40,660 nucleotides of DNA from a bacterium. GTDB taxonomy: Bacteria; Hydrothermota; DG-26; JAUXAN01. Under the pieces are notes generated by a model. That model had not been told where the DNA came from. It made no database searches and was given only the letters and a program-made list of their open reading frames with translations. This document shows, piece after piece, positions 1,911 through 36,228 of this stretch. Location: positions 1-40,660 of the forward strand of contig JAUXAN010000022.1 in NCBI GenBank assembly GCA_030619885.1, read 5' to 3'. Made by a program: the position numbers and the translations under genes. Numbering within the stretch: position 1 is the stretch's first letter; each line of letters opens with the position of its first letter.

Positions 1911-2513
1911 ATGAGCCGCTATAGTGATGATGTCCTGGTAGAGAAAGCGCAGTCGGATGACCTTAATGCTTTTGATAAGTTAGTGAGTAGATATGAGGAA
2001 AAGATCTATAACCTTGCATATCGGATACTTAGAAACAGAGAAGATCCCGAAGATGTCCTTCAGGAGACATTCATTTCGGTTTTCAAATCGCTTAAAAAGT
2101 TCAAACGGAAGTCGGCTTTTTCTACCTGGGTGTATAGAATAGCAACGAATGCTGCTCTTATGAAACTAAGGAAGAAAAAATTGGAGACTGTATCCCTTGA
2201 TGCTCCCTTGAAGATAAGCGAAAATGAAATAAAACGGGAGACAGTCGATTGGTCAAAAAATCCAGGCAAAATATTTAAGACACAGAGATTGAGAGAAATT
2301 ATGGAACAGGCGATCGAATTACTTCCATACCACTATAAAACAGTCTTCTTGTTGAGAGATGAAGAAGGACTCTCAACTGATGAAGTGGCGAAGGTATTGA
2401 ATATTTCCGTCTCGGCTGTTAAATCGAGACTCCATAGAGCAAGGTTGTCTCTACGCGAGAAATTGACTAAATACTTTTCTACAGGCTCGTTTGAGAAACC
2501 AAAGGAAGTGTAA
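1911..2513 (+). CDS. ECF RNA polymerase sigma factor (module 1)
   Basis: A 200-residue sigma-24/RpoE-type factor. Region 2 spans about residues 20-95 (YEEKIYNLAYRILRN, DPEDVLQETF, STWVYRIATNAAL) and region 4 about 130-190 (LPYHYKTVFLLRDEEGLS, followed by a helix-turn-helix with VSAVKSRLHRARLSL). It directs RNA polymerase to stress promoters. Its stop is one base upstream of the next gene's ATG, which encodes a zinc-finger anti-sigma domain fused to Hsp20, so the pair probably forms a stress-response switch. No clear Shine-Dalgarno precedes the ATG. The target regulon cannot be read from this sequence. Confidence 0.92.
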   Translation: MSRYSDDVLVEKAQSDDLNAFDKLVSRYEEKIYNLAYRILRNREDPEDVLQETFISVFKSLKKFKRKSAFSTWVYRIATNAALMKLRKKKLETVSLDAPLKISENEIKRETVDWSKNPGKIFKTQRLREIMEQAIELLPYHYKTVFLLRDEEGLSTDEVAKVLNISVSAVKSRLHRARLSLREKLTKYFSTGSFEKPKEV

Positions 2514-2514
2514 T

Positions 2515-3279
2515 ATGGAATGTAAAGATTTAATCTTTTTCCTTTCAGATTATATAGATGGTGAACTCAATCCCAAAATTTGTGCCGAGTTAGACCAGCA
2601 CCTCAATAAATGTGAATCCTGCAGGATAGTTTTCAACACCTTTGAAAAAACGATTTATCTGTTCAAAGAAATTGAACCACACAAGCTACCAGACGGTGTC
2701 CATAACAGACTGCATAAGGTGATTAAAGAATCCTGGGAGACTAAAATGCGAATCCATCTCAAAACTTTTGCATCTAACAAAATGGAAATAAAAAATAAAA
2801 AGAAGGAGGTAGAAACTATGTCTCCAATAAGAAGGTATCACCCTTTAGCAGAGATTTCAAAAATTGAAGATATGTTCGACCGCTATCTCAACCAGTTCTT
2901 TCGTGACTTCTTCCCTAAACGTATGGTAAGAGGAGAACTCGCCAGAGTCGAATGGACACCAGCAGTTGACATTGTTGATAAAGGAACCCATTTCCTTTTG
3001 AGAAGCGAACTCCCTGGTCTAAAAAGAGAAGATATCAGCATTTCTGTGACCACTGACAGTATAGATATCAGCGGTGAAACGAAAAGAAGCGAGGAAGAGA
3101 AAAAGGAAAACTACTACAAATGCGAACGGTATTATGGGTCATTCTCCAGATCGCTTCAGATTCCTGCAGATGTTGTTCCAGATAAGGTTGAGGCATCTTT
3201 GAAAGATGGTATCCTCGAAGTGAAACTGCCTAAGAAAGAAGTTAAGAAAGTGAAAGCTATTGATGTGAAGGTTAAATAA
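2515..3279 (+). CDS. Zinc-finger anti-sigma domain in frame with Hsp20 chaperone
   Basis: An uninterrupted 254-residue frame. Residues 1-40 are a zf-HC2 anti-sigma domain with ligands Cys3, His29, Cys33 and Cys36 (HLNKCESC), followed by a helical linker to about residue 100. Residues 102-254 are a complete Hsp20/alpha-crystallin protein (WTPAVDIVDKG, SELPGLKREDISI, GSFSRSLQIPADV, and the A-x-x-x-n-G-I-L motif as ASLKDGILEVKLPKK). No transmembrane segment is seen, so the anti-sigma part is cytosolic. ATG at 2515 is chosen because it follows the sigma stop with AAAGGAAG upstream. The family roles are established: zf-HC2 proteins sequester ECF sigma factors, and Hsp20 holds unfolded proteins. 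The fusion is visible here, but a strong internal start (2818) means two products are possible. Confidence 0.85.
   Translation: MECKDLIFFLSDYIDGELNPKICAELDQHLNKCESCRIVFNTFEKTIYLFKEIEPHKLPDGVHNRLHKVIKESWETKMRIHLKTFASNKMEIKNKKKEVETMSPIRRYHPLAEISKIEDMFDRYLNQFFRDFFPKRMVRGELARVEWTPAVDIVDKGTHFLLRSELPGLKREDISISVTTDSIDISGETKRSEEEKKENYYKCERYYGSFSRSLQIPADVVPDKVEASLKDGILEVKLPKKEVKKVKAIDVKVK
2818..3279 (+). CDS. Internal start giving free Hsp20 (153 aa)
   Basis: AAGGAGGT at 2803-2810 lies seven bases before an in-frame ATG at 2818, the best Shine-Dalgarno in this operon. Translation from here gives a 153-residue small heat-shock protein of normal length (MSPIRRYHPLAEISKIEDMF...). The cell may therefore make free Hsp20 in addition to, or instead of, the anti-sigma-Hsp20 fusion. 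A hairpin at 3304-3334 follows the stop codon. Confidence 0.75.
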   Translation: MSPIRRYHPLAEISKIEDMFDRYLNQFFRDFFPKRMVRGELARVEWTPAVDIVDKGTHFLLRSELPGLKREDISISVTTDSIDISGETKRSEEEKKENYYKCERYYGSFSRSLQIPADVVPDKVEASLKDGILEVKLPKKEVKKVKAIDVKVK

Positions 3280-5084: not shown

Positions 5085-6389
5085 TTACCTGCGTATCTGT
5101 ATTATAGATGGGTCGATTAGATTTTGCCAGTCAGCGCGTGTAGGTTCTTGAATTACAGATGAATAGACGAGTTCATAGTTGCCAACCCCCTTTAAATCTA
5201 CAAATATGAACTGCTTCCCACCGCCAGAATAATACAACCAGCTCTCATAAGCTTTGTATGGAAACTGCAAGGGCTGTCTATCTATTTCATCAGGGGGGCC
5301 ATATTTTATGTAAATCTTTCCCATTTCGGAGTCCCTTCCCTTAACTAATGGGGTAGAGAATTTCTTATCCACCTCTTTTATCATCTCTGCAAATTCGGTA
5401 AGGAACTCGTTTTCTTCTGTCCCAGGAATGGGGTCGTTCTTTTTCCAGAAATGGTATCGGTATTCCTCTTTTCCATTGTCAGAAAGACTGTTATAGAATT
5501 TTAAATCCTTCTCTGAAAGAAGATATTCTATCATATTATAGTATTCTGCCAGTTCAGGCTGCGGTTGAATTCTGAATGGTGTTATCTTGAAATTCCTCTC
5601 TTTCTGGACGCTGTGTTTTGTTTCTAAATCTGTGACTTCGATCTTTAATATATAATCATCCCTGCGCAGTCCCACTACATTTATTGCACCAGCCTCTACA
5701 GCAGATTCTCCTGGTTTTTCCACAATCTTTTCAGGAAGCGACTTTACAAATTTCTTATTTTTCTTGAATATCGAATACTTCACGGCAAAACTCCCAGGGA
5801 AAGATAAATTGTATATTTCACAATATGAATATAGAAGTGGGCGAAATAGATTATATTCTCTCGCGGCATTCGGAACTACTTTCAACCCATTCTTGTAGAA
5901 CTTGCCCTTAGTAGAGGTAGACTCGATACTGAAAGCAAGTTCAATATCACTCATTGTGAGTCCTTCTTCTTCAAAGGAGGGTACATCCACAGTTTCATTC
6001 ACAATACCCTTTTTGCCTGAATTTAAATCTTCAACTTTGAAGTATAACCGATAGGAATCAGGTGAAAGAAATAACTGCATTTCATCCACGACCTTCATCT
6101 GTCTCTTCTCTGCATCCTGGTAAGAAGGGATGATACATTTCGTATTCCATCTATCTTCAACGACTTTTTTACCAGAACCGTCCTTCACTTCAAGAAAGAA
6201 TTCAATCGGAGCAACGAATCCTTCTTCTACCTCTTCGTAGGTCAATGTTATATAAGGGATCTCATAGTAGACCTCAGCACAGGTGAGAGTATCTTTTACT
6301 CTGAAAAATGCAAAATCGATTACGAAATCAATCTCTCCTGTGCTTTCAAAAGGCATCAGTAGAAAATTTAATATAATCAAAAGATTCAT
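5085..6389 (-). CDS. GWxTD-like secreted protein, paralogue 2
   Basis: 434 residues with a short N-terminal hydrophobic stretch that may be a signal peptide (MNLLIILNFLLMPFESTGEI). Residues 20-290 are a beta-rich region describing strands like FVIDFAFFRVKDT and VYYEIPYITLTYEE. The C-terminal ~130 residues carry the GWxTD layout: YHFWKKNDPIPGTEENEF, then GKIYIKYGPPDEIDR, then YESWLYY and FIFVD. The name motif itself is changed: GRDSE stands where GWxTD is expected. Its neighbour at 6393 is a paralogue three bases upstream, so the two were probably duplicated in tandem. The function of this family is not known; an envelope role is inferred from the signal peptide. Confidence 0.8.
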   Translation of the reverse strand: MNLLIILNFLLMPFESTGEIDFVIDFAFFRVKDTLTCAEVYYEIPYITLTYEEVEEGFVAPIEFFLEVKDGSGKKVVEDRWNTKCIIPSYQDAEKRQMKVVDEMQLFLSPDSYRLYFKVEDLNSGKKGIVNETVDVPSFEEEGLTMSDIELAFSIESTSTKGKFYKNGLKVVPNAAREYNLFRPLLYSYCEIYNLSFPGSFAVKYSIFKKNKKFVKSLPEKIVEKPGESAVEAGAINVVGLRRDDYILKIEVTDLETKHSVQKERNFKITPFRIQPQPELAEYYNMIEYLLSEKDLKFYNSLSDNGKEEYRYHFWKKNDPIPGTEENEFLTEFAEMIKEVDKKFSTPLVKGRDSEMGKIYIKYGPPDEIDRQPLQFPYKAYESWLYYSGGGKQFIFVDLKGVGNYELVYSSVIQEPTRADWQNLIDPSIIQIRR

Positions 6390-6392
6390 CTT

Positions 6393-7583
6393 TTACCTCA
6401 TATATTTTGGAGATACCAATATATACTCGCCCCAGCCGTGTTCATCAACGAAGACAAATTTTAATTTTCTGGTGTAGTAATACCAGACCTCATAGGGCAT
6501 AGTATTGATTTCATAAGGATGTCTTTCTACTTCGTCGGGTTCTCCATATTTTATATATATCCTGCCTCTATCAGTTTTTGCCCCTTTTTTGAAAGCATAA
6601 CCGAAATGCTCGTTGGCATATCGCACCCTTCTCAAATACTTATCTTTCAATTCGTTCGCCTCTGTAGATGGTGTTGGGTCCTTCGTCTTCCAGAACTCTT
6701 TGAGTGTTTCTTCCCTCTTTTCAGGCGGTGCTTCTTTCAGTTTCTTCATATCTTCGAAAGATGCTATATATTCAAGAACTGAGATTAAATCGAAATATTC
6801 TTCATCAGAAAAGAAAGGGGGCGACTCGATAAAAAAGGTGCAAGTCCTTGTGACCGTATCATTTGAAGATGAAACTGCTATCAGAAGTGTATATTCTCCT
6901 CCCTTCAATCCATGGATGTCTATACTTTTTACAGTAGATACATCAAGAGCCATTATCTCCTTTTTTAATATAGACTGTTTCTTTTCATCTTCTATAAATG
7001 CTTCTATACTCAAATCTTCTGAATCCGGATTATAGATATCAAAAAGAAATTGGAGAGTATCATCCTCACTGCTATATCTTTTACCCACATTCATACGGTT
7101 GTCTTTTAAGAAAAGAATATCGCTTATATATAATCTTCCTGTCAGTTTTGAAACTTTAATATCCGTTTTTATACTACCTCTTTTGGTCGAATTCAAATCC
7201 TTCACCAATACTTTCAGAGAATATTCTCCTTCGGATAGCTTGATTTCCACCTTATCTCTTATGTAGAGTGTCTCTGATAGTGTTTCTTCATATCTGCTGC
7301 AAACAAACTTTCTTTCCCATACATCCCCGGTTATTTGATTGCCCTTCTTATCATAGATTATTGCGCTGATTCTATAGGTGGTTACGAAACTGTCATTATT
7401 AACTATGTATTGTAATTGGTTGGACGGTATCTCGTAGTAGACCTTCTCTATTGGTGTATCCGCATAGGAGGTTATGGACTGAATTGAAAAATCTATCTCG
7501 CCCTTTTTCAGTTCTCTACATACCAGTCGGGATTGAACAAAAAGATAGAGAATAAAAAATAGCACAAGTCTTACCTTATCCAT
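6393..7583 (-). CDS. GWxTD-like secreted protein, paralogue 1
   Basis: 396 residues with an N-terminal signal peptide (VRLVLFFILYLFVQSRLVC). As in the neighbour, a beta-rich N-terminal part contains KVYYEIPSNQLQY. It is followed by a C-terminal GWxTD-type domain: EFWKTKDPTPSTEANEL, RVRYANEHFGYAF, GRIYIKYGEPDEVER, YEVWYYY, FVFVDEHGWGEY. The name motif reads GAKTD, so Trp is replaced by Ala. The ATG lies inside the end of asd with an 8-base overlap, implying translational coupling. The C-terminal domain is clear; the cellular role is unknown. Confidence 0.83.
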   Translation of the reverse strand: MDKVRLVLFFILYLFVQSRLVCRELKKGEIDFSIQSITSYADTPIEKVYYEIPSNQLQYIVNNDSFVTTYRISAIIYDKKGNQITGDVWERKFVCSRYEETLSETLYIRDKVEIKLSEGEYSLKVLVKDLNSTKRGSIKTDIKVSKLTGRLYISDILFLKDNRMNVGKRYSSEDDTLQFLFDIYNPDSEDLSIEAFIEDEKKQSILKKEIMALDVSTVKSIDIHGLKGGEYTLLIAVSSSNDTVTRTCTFFIESPPFFSDEEYFDLISVLEYIASFEDMKKLKEAPPEKREETLKEFWKTKDPTPSTEANELKDKYLRRVRYANEHFGYAFKKGAKTDRGRIYIKYGEPDEVERHPYEINTMPYEVWYYYTRKLKFVFVDEHGWGEYILVSPKYMR

Positions 7584-15660: not shown

Positions 15661-16719
15661 ATGCATATTGACGAATTATTGAATATAATGGTTAAAAATG
15701 GAGCTTCAGACCTCCATCTCAAAGTAGGAAGTCCTCCACTGTTTAGAATTCACGGCGAGCTTCTACCACTTGACAGCCCAGCACTCACCACTGAAGATGT
15801 GAGGAGCTTGGTCGGTCAGATGGCAAATGATGAGCAGAAGCGAAGATTCGATAAAGCGAGGGAACTCGACTTGGCTTACAACCTCGAGGGGGTTGCCCGT
15901 TTCAGGGTCAATGTCTTTTTGCAGAGAATGAATGTTGGGGCGGTTATTCGCCTCATCCCTCTGAATATCAAGTTAATCGATGATTTGGGATTTCCACCGG
16001 TACTCAAAACCCTTGCCTTGAAACCAAGAGGACTTGTCTTAGTAACAGGACCCACAGGATGCGGTAAATCGACCACCCTTGCTGCGATGACTGAACATAT
16101 TAATAACAATCGTCGGTGTCATATTATGACCATAGAAGACCCTATTGAGTTTGTTCATCAGGATAAAAAGAGTGTTATAAACCAGCGGGAGTTAGGTTCT
16201 GATACGCTCACTTATGTTGAAGCATTAAAACATGTTCTCAGACAGGATCCCGATGTGATTTTGATTGGGGAGATGCGAGATTTTGATACAATCGCACTTG
16301 CTATCACTGCCGCCGAAACAGGGCATCTGGTCTTCTCAACCTTACATACCGTAGGTTCGTCTCAGACAATCGACCGTATCATAGATGCCTATCCACCTCA
16401 TCAACAGCAGCAGATTCGCAACCAGCTATCTACAGTTTTAGAAGGCGTCGTCTCTCAAGTCCTTCTGCCAACCGCTGATGGTAAGGGAAGGGTTGCTGCA
16501 TTGGATATTATGGTATCCACCGCAGCGGTCAGAAATTTGATCAGAGATAATAAAACATATCAAATTTCCAGTGTTATACAGACCGGTGCTGCCCAGGGTA
16601 TGCAGACCCTGGACGCTTCTTTGAAAATACTATATCAAAAAGGACTAATCACTTACGAGGAAGCATTGACGAAATGCACCAATCCTGAGGCATTCAAGAA
16701 ACTGGCCACTCATGGCTGA
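15661..16719 (+). CDS. pilT: PilT-type pilus retraction ATPase
   Basis: 352 residues, the normal length of PilT/PilU. The N-terminal part opens with HIDELLNIMVKNGASDLHLK (PAS-like). The RecA-like ATPase domain has Walker A GPTGCGKSTT, an Asp box (TIEDPIEFVH), Walker B VILIGEMRD and a His box TGHLVFSTLHT. It is a hexameric motor at the inner face of the membrane that depolymerises type IV pili. No pilin or other pilus gene lies in the window. selA overlaps its end by 8 bases. Separating PilT from PilU is not possible from this alone. Confidence 0.92.
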   Translation: MHIDELLNIMVKNGASDLHLKVGSPPLFRIHGELLPLDSPALTTEDVRSLVGQMANDEQKRRFDKARELDLAYNLEGVARFRVNVFLQRMNVGAVIRLIPLNIKLIDDLGFPPVLKTLALKPRGLVLVTGPTGCGKSTTLAAMTEHINNNRRCHIMTIEDPIEFVHQDKKSVINQRELGSDTLTYVEALKHVLRQDPDVILIGEMRDFDTIALAITAAETGHLVFSTLHTVGSSQTIDRIIDAYPPHQQQQIRNQLSTVLEGVVSQVLLPTADGKGRVAALDIMVSTAAVRNLIRDNKTYQISSVIQTGAAQGMQTLDASLKILYQKGLITYEEALTKCTNPEAFKKLATHG

Positions 16720-18094
16720 AAAGTCACCCCTTCTCCAGAAAATCCCTTCTGTACATGAAATTTTAAAACATCAAAAACTTAAATCATTACTTTTAGATTA
16801 CAACCGTTCATTTGTCGTAGATGTTGTCAACGATGTTTTAGGAAATATCAGAAAAGATATAGCCTCTTCCCAGAATCGAAGAGTGGACCTTTCCACAGGA
16901 TACATCTCATCGAAGGTGTGTGAAACCATTGACAAGATAATGAAACCATCTCTTGTAAGGGTGATCAATGCGACTGGGGTTATCCTCCACACAGGACTGG
17001 GGAGAGCAATTCTTGATGAGAATGCATTGGAGTCTTTAAAAGAGATCGGAGGCAATTATTGTAATTTAGAGATAGATGCAGAAAGCGGCAAGCGAGGGAG
17101 AAGAGAGACTCATCTACGAAATTTGATTTGCACTCTAAGCAACGGTGAGGATGCCTTTGTAGTAAACAACAATGCCGCAGGGGTTATGCTCTCTTTAAAT
17201 ACACTCGCTTTAGGCAGGGAGGTTATCGTAGCAAGAGGAGAGTTGGTGGAAATCGGTGGTTCGTTTAGAATGCCGGAGATTATGAAAAAAAGCGGATGCA
17301 AACTCGTGGAGGTGGGAACAACCAACAGGGTGACGGTGGATGATTATCGCAGGGCTGCAGGTGAAAATACAGCATTACTATTAAAAGTTCACACCAGTAA
17401 TTATAGAATTGTCGGATTTAGTAAAGATGTGTCCTTGAAAGAGTTGGTAAAATTAGGAGATGATTTGAATTTACCGGTGATGTATGATGTTGGAAGTGGC
17501 GCTCTACTTCCGGAGATAAAAAAAGAGCCATTGATTGGTGAGAGCGTAGCTACTGGTGTTTCTATCATTAGTTTCAGCGCAGACAAATTGTTGGGAGGTC
17601 CACAGGGGGGGATCATTATTGGCAAGAAACATTATATAGAGGAGATGAGGAAAAATCCGTTTGCGAGGGCGGTTAGAATAGGGAAATTGACTATCGCTGC
17701 TTTAGAATCAACACTGAAGGGGTATCTGACCAGAGAGAGACTAAATCCTACCCTCCAGATGCTGTCCCGACCACTCGATGATATACATAACGATGCAGTT
17801 CATCTGGCAAAACATTTAAAAGCTACTCTGAAAGGGAGTTTTGAAGTAGAGGTTATTGACGGTTATTCAAAGAGCGGCGGTGGTGCATTGCCACTCGAGG
17901 AGCTGCCCACTAAATTGGTAGCAATCAAACCCATCAAAGGGTTTGTTGAAAAATTGGCAAAGAGTCTGCGTTTGAGTGCCCCCTCCGTTATCGGACGTAT
18001 AGCAAACAACAGATTGTTGCTTGACCTTCGAACGGTTAAAAAAGATGCGATAGAAGAAATAGTGGAAACTTTCAAAAAAATCGCGAAAAGTTAA
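16712..18094 (+). CDS. selA: L-seryl-tRNA(Sec) selenium transferase
   Basis: Converts Ser-tRNA(Sec) to Sec-tRNA(Sec) using selenophosphate, a PLP enzyme. 460 residues, as in bacterial SelA. Visible features: N-terminal IPSVHEILKHQKLKSLLLDY, INATGVILHTGLGRAIL, DAFVVNNNAAGVMLSLNTLA, and the PLP lysine Lys292 in SFSADKLLGGPQGGIIIG. selB follows five bases downstream. selD and the selC tRNA are not in this window, so the pathway must be completed elsewhere. Translation is probably coupled to pilT. Confidence 0.95.
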   Translation: MAEKSPLLQKIPSVHEILKHQKLKSLLLDYNRSFVVDVVNDVLGNIRKDIASSQNRRVDLSTGYISSKVCETIDKIMKPSLVRVINATGVILHTGLGRAILDENALESLKEIGGNYCNLEIDAESGKRGRRETHLRNLICTLSNGEDAFVVNNNAAGVMLSLNTLALGREVIVARGELVEIGGSFRMPEIMKKSGCKLVEVGTTNRVTVDDYRRAAGENTALLLKVHTSNYRIVGFSKDVSLKELVKLGDDLNLPVMYDVGSGALLPEIKKEPLIGESVATGVSIISFSADKLLGGPQGGIIIGKKHYIEEMRKNPFARAVRIGKLTIAALESTLKGYLTRERLNPTLQMLSRPLDDIHNDAVHLAKHLKATLKGSFEVEVIDGYSKSGGGALPLEELPTKLVAIKPIKGFVEKLAKSLRLSAPSVIGRIANNRLLLDLRTVKKDAIEEIVETFKKIAKS

Positions 18095-18099
18095 CTGGC

Positions 18100-20001
18100 T
18101 TGATTACAAAACATATCATTATAGGCACCGCAGGGCATATAGACCACGGTAAGACGAAACTTACAGAAGCACTCACCGGAGTGAATACAGACCGTTTACC
18201 AGAAGAAAAACAGAGAGAGATGTCTATAGACCTGGGTTTCGCACCGTTTGATCTGGCAGAGGAACTGAAAGCGAGTATAGTGGATGTGCCCGGCCATGAA
18301 AGATTTATCAAAAATATGGCTGCAGGCGTCAGCGGTATAGATATGGTGCTTTTCTGTGTTGCGGCTGATGATGGAGTTATGCCTCAGACTATCGAACATC
18401 TCCAGATTCTGGACCTGCTCGGAGTTACCTGCGGTATAATCGCTCTGACCAAGATAGACCTCGTATCCAAGGATAGAATAGATAGGGTTGTAGAAGAGAT
18501 AAAAACTTTAACAAGGGGTGCATTCCTTGCAGATGCCCCTATAATTGGTGTCTCTGCAGTTACCAAAGATGGTATTGAAGCTTTCAAAGAGGCAATCATT
18601 GAAATAGCAGAGAAAGTTCCACCTCGCAGTGAGAATGGGATATTCAGACTGCCCATAGATAGAATTTTTACAATGTCGGGATTCGGTACAGTCATTACCG
18701 GAACTCTAATTTCAGGAAAACTTGTAACCGGTTCTTCTGTAAAAATTTTACCTCCAAATATAAGGGCACGCGTGAGGAATATTCAGGTGCACAATAGACC
18801 AGTAAATGAGGCGGTGGCAGGACAGCGTACGGCATTGAATTTGAAAGATGTGGACAAATCCGATATACAGAGAGGGGATCTTGTCACTACTCCAAAGTTG
18901 CTCGAAGCGACCACTCAAATCAATGCTAAATTGAAATTGCTCGGGACTGTTAAAAAACCATTGAAGGACAGGACAAGAATCAGATTTCATAGTGGAACGA
19001 GTGAGATAATGGCAAGGGTCGCCTTGATAGGTACTTCAGAATTGGAGCCGGGAAAGTCCTGTTTTGTCCAGATCCAACTTGAGAAACCCACTGTAGTTTT
19101 GAGGAAAGACAGATTCATCATCAGAACTTATTCGCCCCAGATAACCATCGGCGGCGGTACTATATTGGATGGTTATCCAAAGCAGTACAGAGCAAGACTT
19201 GAAGAAAACTTTAAATCTGAACTAGAAATAATGGAAAGTAAGGATGAGTCGAGGGTCATTGAACATATCTTAGTTAATAAAAAATCATATATAAAATCCA
19301 TAGATGAACTGGTAAAATTGGTGAATATATCACCAAAAGCAGCAGAGAATATTATAGAGAGACTCTATCAGGATAAAAAAGTAGAAAAACTCGGCAGAAA
19401 GATGGTGGTTCACACCGAGATATTGGAGCTATTTAAAGAGAAGATAAGGAAAACATTGGACGACTTTTTCAAAGGCCAACTTTATGTATCAAAAACTAAT
19501 TTGAGGACTCTGTTTCAAAAGGAGATTGACTCACGGATTTTTGAAACCATTCTAAAAGAACTGAAAGATGCAGGCATTATCAGTATCAAGGAAGACAGGA
19601 TAGAGATAGTATCGCATAAGGACGAGTTAAAAGGGACGATACTGCACATCGAAAATTTATACAAAGAATCTCTCTTCAGCCCACCTGACTTAAAAGAAGT
19701 AACAAAGAGGTCGGGAATAAAAGGAGAGACAGTAAGTGATATTTACGCCGATTTATTAAAATCTAATATCTTAGTGGAGGTAGCCAGAGGAATAACATTT
19801 CACCACTCAGCGATCGACTCTGCAATAAACAAACTGAGAGATTATCAAAAAGAGATAACTGTGAGTGAATTCAGACAACTACTTGGGACAAGCAGGAAAT
19901 ATGCCGTCCCATTATTAGAATACCTTGATAGGATAGGAATCACGCACAGAGAAGGGGATGTAAGAGTGTTAAGTAAAAAGTCCAAAAAATCTGTAGATTA
20001 G
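18100..20001 (+). CDS. selB: Selenocysteine-specific elongation factor
   Basis: GTPase that carries Sec-tRNA(Sec) to the ribosome and binds the SECIS hairpin. 633 residues starting at TTG 18100, five bases after selA. G domain: GTAGHIDHGKTKL (G1), DVPGHERFIKNMAAG (G3), TKIDLV (G4). Beta-barrel domains 2-3 run to about residue 350. C-terminal winged-helix repeats from about 370 (VIEHILVNKKSYIKSIDELV; EITVSEFRQLLGTSRKYAVP) bind mRNA. Together with selA it shows the organism uses selenocysteine; no selenoprotein gene was recognised here. Confidence 0.95.
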   Translation: MITKHIIIGTAGHIDHGKTKLTEALTGVNTDRLPEEKQREMSIDLGFAPFDLAEELKASIVDVPGHERFIKNMAAGVSGIDMVLFCVAADDGVMPQTIEHLQILDLLGVTCGIIALTKIDLVSKDRIDRVVEEIKTLTRGAFLADAPIIGVSAVTKDGIEAFKEAIIEIAEKVPPRSENGIFRLPIDRIFTMSGFGTVITGTLISGKLVTGSSVKILPPNIRARVRNIQVHNRPVNEAVAGQRTALNLKDVDKSDIQRGDLVTTPKLLEATTQINAKLKLLGTVKKPLKDRTRIRFHSGTSEIMARVALIGTSELEPGKSCFVQIQLEKPTVVLRKDRFIIRTYSPQITIGGGTILDGYPKQYRARLEENFKSELEIMESKDESRVIEHILVNKKSYIKSIDELVKLVNISPKAAENIIERLYQDKKVEKLGRKMVVHTEILELFKEKIRKTLDDFFKGQLYVSKTNLRTLFQKEIDSRIFETILKELKDAGIISIKEDRIEIVSHKDELKGTILHIENLYKESLFSPPDLKEVTKRSGIKGETVSDIYADLLKSNILVEVARGITFHHSAIDSAINKLRDYQKEITVSEFRQLLGTSRKYAVPLLEYLDRIGITHREGDVRVLSKKSKKSVD

Positions 20002-34742: not shown

Positions 34743-35279
34743 TCACCCCCTTTTTAACATTTTTTCTAATCTCTTACAGAAAGCAGTTCTTTCCTCTTCT
34801 TCCATCTCATCGATTAGAATAGATATATCCTTATTTTCAATCTCCCTCTCTTCCAACAGGATTTCCATCTCTATGGCATCCTTTTCAATCTTTTCATTTA
34901 CCAAGTTTTCAATGATTACACTCTCTATAAACTCTACCGTTTCTATATTCGGTTCTCTATTTCTGAAATAAAAAATACTTATAATGAACAGAATGGAAAG
35001 TGAGACTGCAAAGACAGGGACGAGTTTGAACGAAAACCGTTTCTCTTTTCTTGCTTCTATCCTCTCTCTCACATTTGGCAGAAAGTTGACCAAGAACTTT
35101 TCGGATAGGCGTGGAACCCTGGCCCTTTTTGTTAAAGAGATGGTTTTCTTTAAACTATTCAATTCTGCACTACATTTAATACAAAGTCTAAGATGTTCAT
35201 CGATTGTCTCTTTTTCAAAATTTTTCAGTTCGTCTTCAATATAGTCCACGAATCTTTTTTTAACTTTTCTGCACTTCAT
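34743..35279 (-). CDS. Transmembrane zinc-finger anti-sigma factor (module 2)
   Basis: 178 residues. The cytosolic zf-HC2 domain has Cys3, His29, Cys33 and Cys36, the same spacing as in the anti-sigma-Hsp20 fusion at 2515. One membrane helix spans about 86-105 (LVPVFAVSLSILFIISIFYF). The periplasmic tail (~70 residues) is strongly acidic. It holds the ECF sigma factor until an envelope signal arrives. The start overlaps the sigma stop (ATGA) with AGGAGGT upstream. Confidence 0.88.
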   Translation of the reverse strand: MKCRKVKKRFVDYIEDELKNFEKETIDEHLRLCIKCSAELNSLKKTISLTKRARVPRLSEKFLVNFLPNVRERIEARKEKRFSFKLVPVFAVSLSILFIISIFYFRNREPNIETVEFIESVIIENLVNEKIEKDAIEMEILLEEREIENKDISILIDEMEEEERTAFCKRLEKMLKRG

Positions 35280-35815
35280 ATGGACCTCCTTTTCTGTAGG
35301 GAACAGGCATGCCTGTTCCCTACTCCACTGAGTGGAGCGAGTAGTTCCCTTAGTTTAAAAACTGCCTGATGGTAGTTCGACTTAACTGTTCCTAATGACT
35401 TGCCCATAATCTCGGCGATTTCTTTATGCTGTAGATTCTCATAGTTTCTCATAACGAAGACAGCCCTCTGTTTTGGTGGAAGAGTGTTGATTGCCTTCTC
35501 TATTTGAATCGATAAATACTTTTTCTTCAGTTCTTTTTCCGGATTTGAACTGTCTGCTACAGTTTCTGGTTTCAATTCTTCAAATTTGATCTTTTTCTTC
35601 TTGGTGAAATTTATACACATATTGCAGGCAATCCTGTATATCCAGGTAAAAAGGGAAGACTTTCCTTTGAAATCCTTCAATTTCAAATAGACCTTCACGA
35701 AGACCTCCTGAGAGAGATCTTTTGCATCTTCTTCATTTCCAACCATTCTGTAACATAGATAATATATCTTCTTTTGATATTTTCTGACGATTTCATTGAA
35801 ATCCCTATCCTCCAT
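35276..35815 (-). CDS. ECF RNA polymerase sigma factor (module 2)
   Basis: 179 residues from ATG 35815. Region 2: YQKKIYYLCYRMVGNEEDAK, DLSQEVFVKVYLKLKDF, TWIYRIACNMCINF. Region 4: INTLPPKQRAVFVMRNYENL, then the recognition helix KSLGTVKSNYHQAVFKLREL. The natural end should be near LREL; about 20 extra residues follow, whose codons lie in a 28-bp perfect palindrome (35296-35323), so a repeat insertion has altered the C-terminus. It forms an operon with the anti-sigma and Spy-like genes. Confidence 0.9.
   Translation of the reverse strand: MEDRDFNEIVRKYQKKIYYLCYRMVGNEEDAKDLSQEVFVKVYLKLKDFKGKSSLFTWIYRIACNMCINFTKKKKIKFEELKPETVADSSNPEKELKKKYLSIQIEKAINTLPPKQRAVFVMRNYENLQHKEIAEIMGKSLGTVKSNYHQAVFKLRELLAPLSGVGNRHACSLQKRRSI
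35296..35337. repeat. REP-like double palindrome at sigma gene 3' end
   Basis: GTAGGGAACAGGCA directly joined to its reverse complement (35296-35323), followed by CTCCACT-G-AGTGGAG (35323-35337). It lies inside the coding end of the ECF sigma gene. Confidence 0.7.
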
Positions 35816-36228
35816 ACTATTTTCTATTAGTGATATGTAAGCCTTTCTAAAAACATACCTTTGAGCCACGGATTACACAGATTAAAGCACAGGAGAAAAT
35901 CCACGGGATGCTGTGCAGGAGAATTCATGAAAGGGGGAAATATTTTTCTCTTTTCTCCATTTTCTTCTTTCCCCTTAAACTTATATCTCGTGGTTCCATT
36001 CTTTATTACTCCTATTATGTTAGACAAGAAAGTTTAGAAAAGGTTTAAACCCCGTTAGATGTTTACTATCTAACGGGGCAAACCCAGATTATGTATTAAA
36101 CACCCCTACGGGTCGTATGACCGAAAATCACTGAAATAACAAGTCCCTACGGATCCCATACGGGTCTACGACCGTATGAAAAATACAAAATTTGTAAAAA
36201 TAGCTCCTGTCCCCATTTTTAGAATGTA
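35816..36228. other. 413-base repeat region without a convincing gene
   Basis: Holds a GCCACGGATTACACAGATT copy (35866-35884), a GTTAGA-family hairpin (36050-36078) and two CTACGGGTCGTATGACC-type repeats (36102-36119 and 36152-36177). No reading frame here has support. Confidence 0.6.
36050..36078. repeat. Hairpin repeat, GTTAGA family, copy C
   Basis: Perfect 11-bp stem CCCCGTTAGAT / ATCTAACGGGG with loop GTTTACT. The copy at 12729-12757 is the same sequence with a few changes on the opposite strand. Confidence 0.75.

Follow-up and report, generated by a model that had tools for sequence, protein, structure and literature searches.

Behind an ECF sigma factor gene in a 40,660-nucleotide stretch of bacterial DNA (here called the window), one open reading frame joins a zf-HC2 anti-sigma domain to a full-length Hsp20. 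Is this a regulatory protein in its own right, or are these two neighboring genes that have lost the stop codon between them? The ECF gene (positions 1911 to 2513, + strand) encodes a 200-amino-acid (aa), SigW/RpoE-like factor recognized by Pfam (Sigma70_r2 and r4_2) and NCBIfam, and the joined gene (2515 to 3279, + strand) starts one base after its end. All 254 codons are free of stops in the ORF readout; Pfam places zf-HC2 at residues 3 to 37 (E = 6e-9) and HSP20 at residues 152 to 251 (E = 6e-23). With the zinc ligands Cys3, His29, Cys33, and Cys36 all present, and invariant among the tight fusions of the relatives described below, the single zf-HC2::Hsp20 frame reported in the initial annotation is borne out. 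Since every ribosome that starts at the ATG at 2515 makes the fusion, the anti-sigma factor of the window genome is predicted to exist only joined to Hsp20.

Residues 1 to 77 (2515 to 2745, + strand) form a class I zinc anti-sigma domain of four helices, as judged by Pfam, by the AF2 model, and by a PDB match to RsiW, the closest solved anti-sigma chain (5wuq); the anti-sigma part also has an RsrA-family match. The domain carries the class I features: the C-x(n)-H-x3-C-x2-C pattern, a four-helix fold, an ECF-coupled gene, and a zf-HC2 score over the Pfam cutoff. We would expect it to bind this ECF. In the AF2 model, the four-helix domain (residues 3 to 14, 20 to 32, 34 to 51, and 62 to 99, with helix 4 at low confidence) is joined to an Hsp20 sandwich by a linker of low confidence. 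Read from an internal ATG (2818 to 3279, + strand; 153 aa), the Hsp20 part has what defines a small heat shock protein (sHSP): an N-terminal arm, an alpha-crystallin sandwich, and a C-terminal I-x-I/V tail, here I-x-V. Its alpha-crystallin domain (ACD; Pfam HSP20; 2968 to 3267, + strand) gave Foldseek matches to small heat shock proteins.

Soluble class I anti-sigma factors usually carry their sensor behind the sigma-binding domain, where ChrR has a cupin. RsiW, ChrR, and RsrA share with the window protein the CHCC zinc motif, the four-helix sigma-binding domain, and a gene placed right behind that of the ECF, and ChrR likewise consists of a soluble anti-sigma domain and a C-terminal domain. 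The C-terminal part is what differs, being Hsp20/alpha-crystallin here, a cupin in ChrR, and a membrane helix in RsiW. Among class I anti-sigma factors, members of a group share their fused domains to a striking degree (PMC7406223). Our literature search found no description of an HC2-Hsp20 fusion; the main text of the class I classification (PMC7406223) contains no Hsp20, and a review of stress ECFs (PMC8103513) contains none either.

The linker between the two domains (residues 78 to 101) is the promoter, leader, and ribosome binding site (RBS) of hsp20 read in frame as protein. An ECF-type promoter, CGAATCC-N16-ATCTAA (2749 to 2777, + strand), lies inside the linker codons and ends 40 nt before the ATG at 2818, and the Shine-Dalgarno sequence AAGGAGGT (2803 to 2810, + strand) sits seven bases before that ATG. 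Eleven homologous free hsp20 genes are preceded by an RBS of the same kind, and in alignments the product of ATG 2818 starts level with the N termini of orthologous free Hsp20s. Chance would give the pattern GAATCC-N16/17-ATCTAA 0.03 times in the window; it was found twice, and none of 100 shuffles contained two. A position weight matrix (PWM) trained without the window genome ranks these two sites above all others in the 40 kb (scores of 22.2 and 16.3, the latter for the internal promoter). A score of ≥16 is expected 0.43 times in a 40-kb window under a simple Markov null, so that 16.3 alone is not rare and the internal site takes its weight from its position. With these signals of hsp20 in the linker, the cell almost certainly produces Hsp20 as a free protein of 153 residues. 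The 254-residue fusion is expected as well, since the frame that opens at ATG 2515 runs unbroken to the end of Hsp20. The strong internal RBS and start of a normal-length Hsp20 claimed in the initial annotation are thereby confirmed, and its proposal that one gene can give both a fusion and a free chaperone gains support from the promoter upstream of the internal start. The linker was also considered as a relic of the ACD of a tight fusion; an HMM alignment reached residue 100, but 47 of 1,000 linker shuffles aligned as well, and a promoter with its RBS would explain the linker better.

Searching 60 related genomes with the window fusion returned several in which zf-HC2 and Hsp20 share one frame of ~180 to 225 codons, in an operon hpf-ECF-HC2::ACD (hpf encodes a ribosome hibernation factor, Pfam S30AE). 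Across 147 genomes of the phylum, a profile built from six sequences yielded eight tight fusions of 175 to 190 aa, all matched over their full length at E < 1e-78 and belonging to families f4, f12, and f14; a 390-genome profile search extending outside the phylum found no further HC2::ACD fusions. At E < 1e-92, all eight of these genomes and the window genome have an ECF orthologue and none of the others does; the window ECF is 48 to 58% identical to the other eight. Wherever the window or tight-fusion genomes have both genes on one contig, the ECF and HC2 genes are adjacent or overlapping. More distant cousin ECFs (E values of 1e-54 to 1e-68) were found in families f25, f13, f5, f18, f28, and f37. 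A tree of the ECFs places the window sequence next to the tight-fusion clade as its sister (support of 83 for that clade), and the f25 and f13 cousins fall outside. The gene order in f25 is ECF-HC2-hsp20, three separate genes with stops and with a promoter between HC2 and hsp20; in f13 it is ECF-HC2-mnmA. The initial annotation had made the fusion depend on whether relatives show a stop between the domains: none does among the eight closer ECF orthologues, which have a true fusion of different build, while the f25 cousin does have one.

The tight fusions place the ACD directly after the fourth anti-sigma helix and have no internal start. The model of one shows helices at residues 3 to 14, 20 to 32, 34 to 53, and 60 to 76 (helix 4 again at low confidence) plus a sandwich, and its Foldseek matches are small heat shock proteins. 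Set against bacterial Hsp20s, the window part is full length, with arm, ACD, and I-x-V tail, whereas the tight ACDs have neither N-terminal arm nor I-x-I/V tail and are short of four residues in the dimerization-strand loop; because arm and tail are absent, we call these proteins ACD fusions rather than sHSPs. The fused ACD is under purifying selection (dN/dS of 0.07, 0.28, and 0.24 in three pairs), and the loss of the arms and of part of the dimerization loop suggests a sensing role instead of bulk chaperone work. The same genomes retain a separate, full Hsp20 elsewhere, under the same promoter element. The window Hsp20 groups with these free Hsp20s and not with the fused ACDs (UFBoot of 98). 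Direct descent of the tight ACDs from a window-type Hsp20 was considered too, and the alternative grouping with the tight ACDs survives the AU test (P = 0.36). Three states are thus found, namely, separate genes, a fusion through the chaperone's promoter, and a tight fusion with a spare hsp20 elsewhere, and they suggest how an anti-sigma factor may come to acquire a sensor domain.

What the ECF controls was read from promoters. Upstream regions of free hsp20 genes gave TGAAYCC-N16/17-ATCTAA, the form expected of ECF promoters, and the promoter element reads TGAATCYTTTT-N10/11-GCATCTAA. The window's ECF operon has a strict match, TGAATCC-N17-ATCTAA (1877 to 1906, + strand), which is the best PWM site of the 40 kb; because its −10 element ends 4 nt before the ECF ATG, the operon mRNA may be leaderless. 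In a scan of 25 genomes, the strict pattern lay upstream of hsp20 in all seven fusion genomes where a free hsp20 was found and also preceded grpE-dnaK in G020 and G031, rpsU-dnaG in G143, and the window ECF operon; of the non-fusion genomes scanned, only two, both of family f9, had a match. The f9 hsp20 orthologues in genomes without this ECF lack the element. A relaxed scan found the element before grpE in 8 of 8 tight-fusion genomes and before groES in G003, G014, and G026; in G031 it lies farther upstream of groESL, ahead of one extra gene. It also precedes dnaJ in G014, G026, and the window genome and rpsU-dnaG-rpoD in G059. A PWM made from hsp20 sites only recovered the grpE and groES sites at P values of 0.0002 to 0.003, compared with P > 0.08 in five control genomes; the G059 grpE site overlaps the cut of the PWM scan and was read from the relaxed scan instead. 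The window genome has the element before dnaJ (P = 0.0085) and, as a weaker match, before grpE-dnaK (P = 0.0077). No site was found at groES of the window genome or within 320 bp of groES in G020, G059, and G144. Phylum-wide, there were 31 matches in 9 fusion genomes and 64 in the 138 others.

A promoter element shared by chaperone genes is present with this ECF and absent without it. We conclude with good confidence, from sequence comparison, that the element co-occurs with the ECF and marks chaperone genes; a regulon of hsp20, grpE-dnaK, dnaJ, and groESL is well supported, and this ECF presumably reads the element. In cousin genomes, a variant of the element that ends in GTCTAA stands ahead of groES and hsp20 and, in G015, also of grpE, suggesting chaperone genes as targets throughout this branch of ECFs. 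The element is missing from the hpf-ECF-HC2::ACD operon of the tight fusions, and autoregulation is hence not a general feature. Upstream of free hsp20, the element overlaps the 3′ end of a deacetylase gene, which could add coding conservation to it; before grpE, dnaJ, and groES the element stands in other contexts. Several further copies were seen. Those ahead of rpsU-dnaG (G143:C90 and G059:C58, the latter with rpoD next) recall the heat-inducible rpoD promoter of E. coli. Strong copies in family f12 with no chaperone gene close downstream (G014:C30:105, G026:C5:189346, G014:C22:582, and G014:C105:15641) are possible further regulon members or small RNAs. In the window genome, a TGAAACTTTT-GTCTAA site (G000:C38:73967-73996) lies ~600 bp before another zf-HC2 frame (C38:74569) and may be the promoter through which another ECF pair regulates itself.

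The usual heat shock regulators were sought as well. HrcA occurred in none of the 147 genomes searched in the phylum, no CIRCE element lay within 4 mismatches at chaperone loci, and no RpoH match rose above the proteobacterial cutoff. To our knowledge, little has been described of how uncultured phyla sense protein damage without HrcA/CIRCE or a recognizable RpoH. In many other families, a sigma70-like factor of ~280 aa is encoded near hsp20, within ~2 kb in, e.g., G030:C79, G001:C133, G033:C74, and G016:C30, and in G030:C79 an HtrA-like protease gene lies between the two; this pairing is possibly a different heat shock sigma arrangement. Because one such factor is also present in the window genome, another sigma could read some of the element promoters. 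Separately, G022:C31 encodes an orphan zf-HC2 protein (2875 to 3156; 93 aa) directly behind dnaK and dnaJ, with no ECF beside it in the stretch read, another operon link between HC2 and chaperones.

The reading we favor, and think somewhat probable, is that of a heat shock ECF whose zinc anti-sigma factor uses the joined Hsp20 domain as its sensor, the sensing step being one that we infer. A fuller version, with the ECF controlling the core chaperones, the anti-sigma factor sensing unfolded protein directly through its covalent Hsp20 or ACD, and the window representing an intermediate in the fusion's origin with the chaperone promoter still within the linker, is more tentative, and we place it a little short of even. 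In this scheme, the ECF would drive its own operon, hsp20 (whose promoter is embedded in the 3′ end of the anti-sigma frame), and dnaJ, and probably also grpE-dnaK. In unstressed cells, the four-helix HC2 domain would hold the ECF, while the attached Hsp20 domain would mix into Hsp20 oligomers and report protein damage. Once that domain was occupied by unfolded clients, in line with the titration of the Hsp20 part by clients suggested in the initial annotation, or the oligomer was rearranged by heat, the ECF would be released and more chaperones would be made; new free Hsp20 would then take up clients and restore inhibition. In the eight relatives, whose hsp20 lies at another locus behind a promoter of the same type, this role would fall to a stripped ACD on HC2.

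Linking a chaperone to the anti-sigma factor is reasonable as a means of regulation, on indirect support: the element stands before the major chaperone genes, and three other families conserve HC2::ACD. In the feedback loops of DnaK and sigma32, GroEL and HrcA, and DnaK and HspR, chaperone load sets the activity of the heat shock transcription factor. Here, by comparison, the inhibitor carries its chaperone domain covalently, and that domain is an ATP-independent sHSP, so the brake on the heat shock response may itself be a damage-sensing chaperone. The sigma factor, inhibitor, promoter element, and most target genes can be named at this locus, and because the proposed sensor is built into the inhibitor, the idea of chaperone occupancy can be tested with two purified proteins.

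That the frame merely lost a stop, so that HC2 runs through the hsp20 promoter and RBS to give a tolerated fused by-product while Hsp20 acts as a free protein and HC2 alone regulates, strikes us as unlikely, if a serious contender. A linker made of exactly promoter, leader, and RBS could point to the loss of a stop instead of selection for a fusion, the f25 cousin has the same order with its stop in place, and the test of the linker as an ACD relic was weak. Moreover, an open in-frame join would arise by chance with a probability of ~0.10 (~0.30 that 24 codons stay open at the base composition of intergenic DNA, multiplied by 1/3 for the frame), so that the open frame by itself is little proof. 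What takes the join beyond chance is the independent tight fusion, without internal start, behind 8 of 8 of the closest ECF orthologues; a lost stop, too, would still turn all translation from ATG 2515 into fusion. An assembly or sequencing error that removed a stop or frame break is far less plausible, indeed very improbable. The open frame is known from one assembly of 86 contigs, the sole genome of its family among those searched, but both halves are intact, the join spans intact functional elements, and relatives have fusions too.

Two other proposals accept the fusion and differ from a client-sensing Hsp20 domain in the signal. The ACD could sense the amount of free Hsp20 instead of clients, docking on Hsp20 oligomers (e.g., with an I-x-I/V tail in its groove) so that inhibition tracks chaperone abundance, as in the DnaK/sigma32 and GroEL/HrcA feedback; we regard this as rather unlikely. 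The tight ACDs, which keep the sandwich while lacking arm, tail, and the four loop residues, and the separate full Hsp20 of the same genomes under the same promoter speak for it, but the window form keeps all oligomerization parts, so both readings fit that form. More doubtful still is that HC2 itself is a thiol-switch sensor like RsrA or RshA, with Hsp20 only an effector or stabilizer. Such a switch would fit the invariant CHCC motif, the RsrA-family match, and the SigH/RshA regulon of Corynebacterium glutamicum, which holds disulfide and heat stress genes (PMC3489674). The actinobacterial SigH-RshA and SigR-RsrA pairs likewise combine an ECF with a zinc anti-sigma factor and a regulon with heat stress genes (PMC3489674), but RshA and RsrA have no chaperone domain and respond to disulfide stress, and the regulon here, by its promoter element, is unlike theirs in being centered on hsp20, grpE-dnaK, dnaJ, and groESL. 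The CHCC motif is no proof of redox sensing: RsiW has it at C3, H30, C34, and C37, corresponding to the window residues, and keeps its sigma factor when oxidized (PMC5358783). A thiol switch would also leave the conservation of the ACD fusion unexplained.

Elsewhere in the window, a second ECF is paired with a membrane-type zf-HC2 anti-sigma factor (34743 to 35869, − strand), followed by an LTXXQ-like small protein and, downstream, by multidrug-efflux-type genes (outer membrane factor, membrane fusion protein, and ABC transporter). Adjacent selA- and selB-like genes for selenocysteine insertion lie at 16712 to 20001 (+ strand); no tRNA genes were found in the window. Two tandem GWxTD-type proteins are encoded at 5085 to 7583 (− strand), and several tight-fusion genomes also have a gene of GWxTD type next to their hpf-ECF-HC2::ACD operon.
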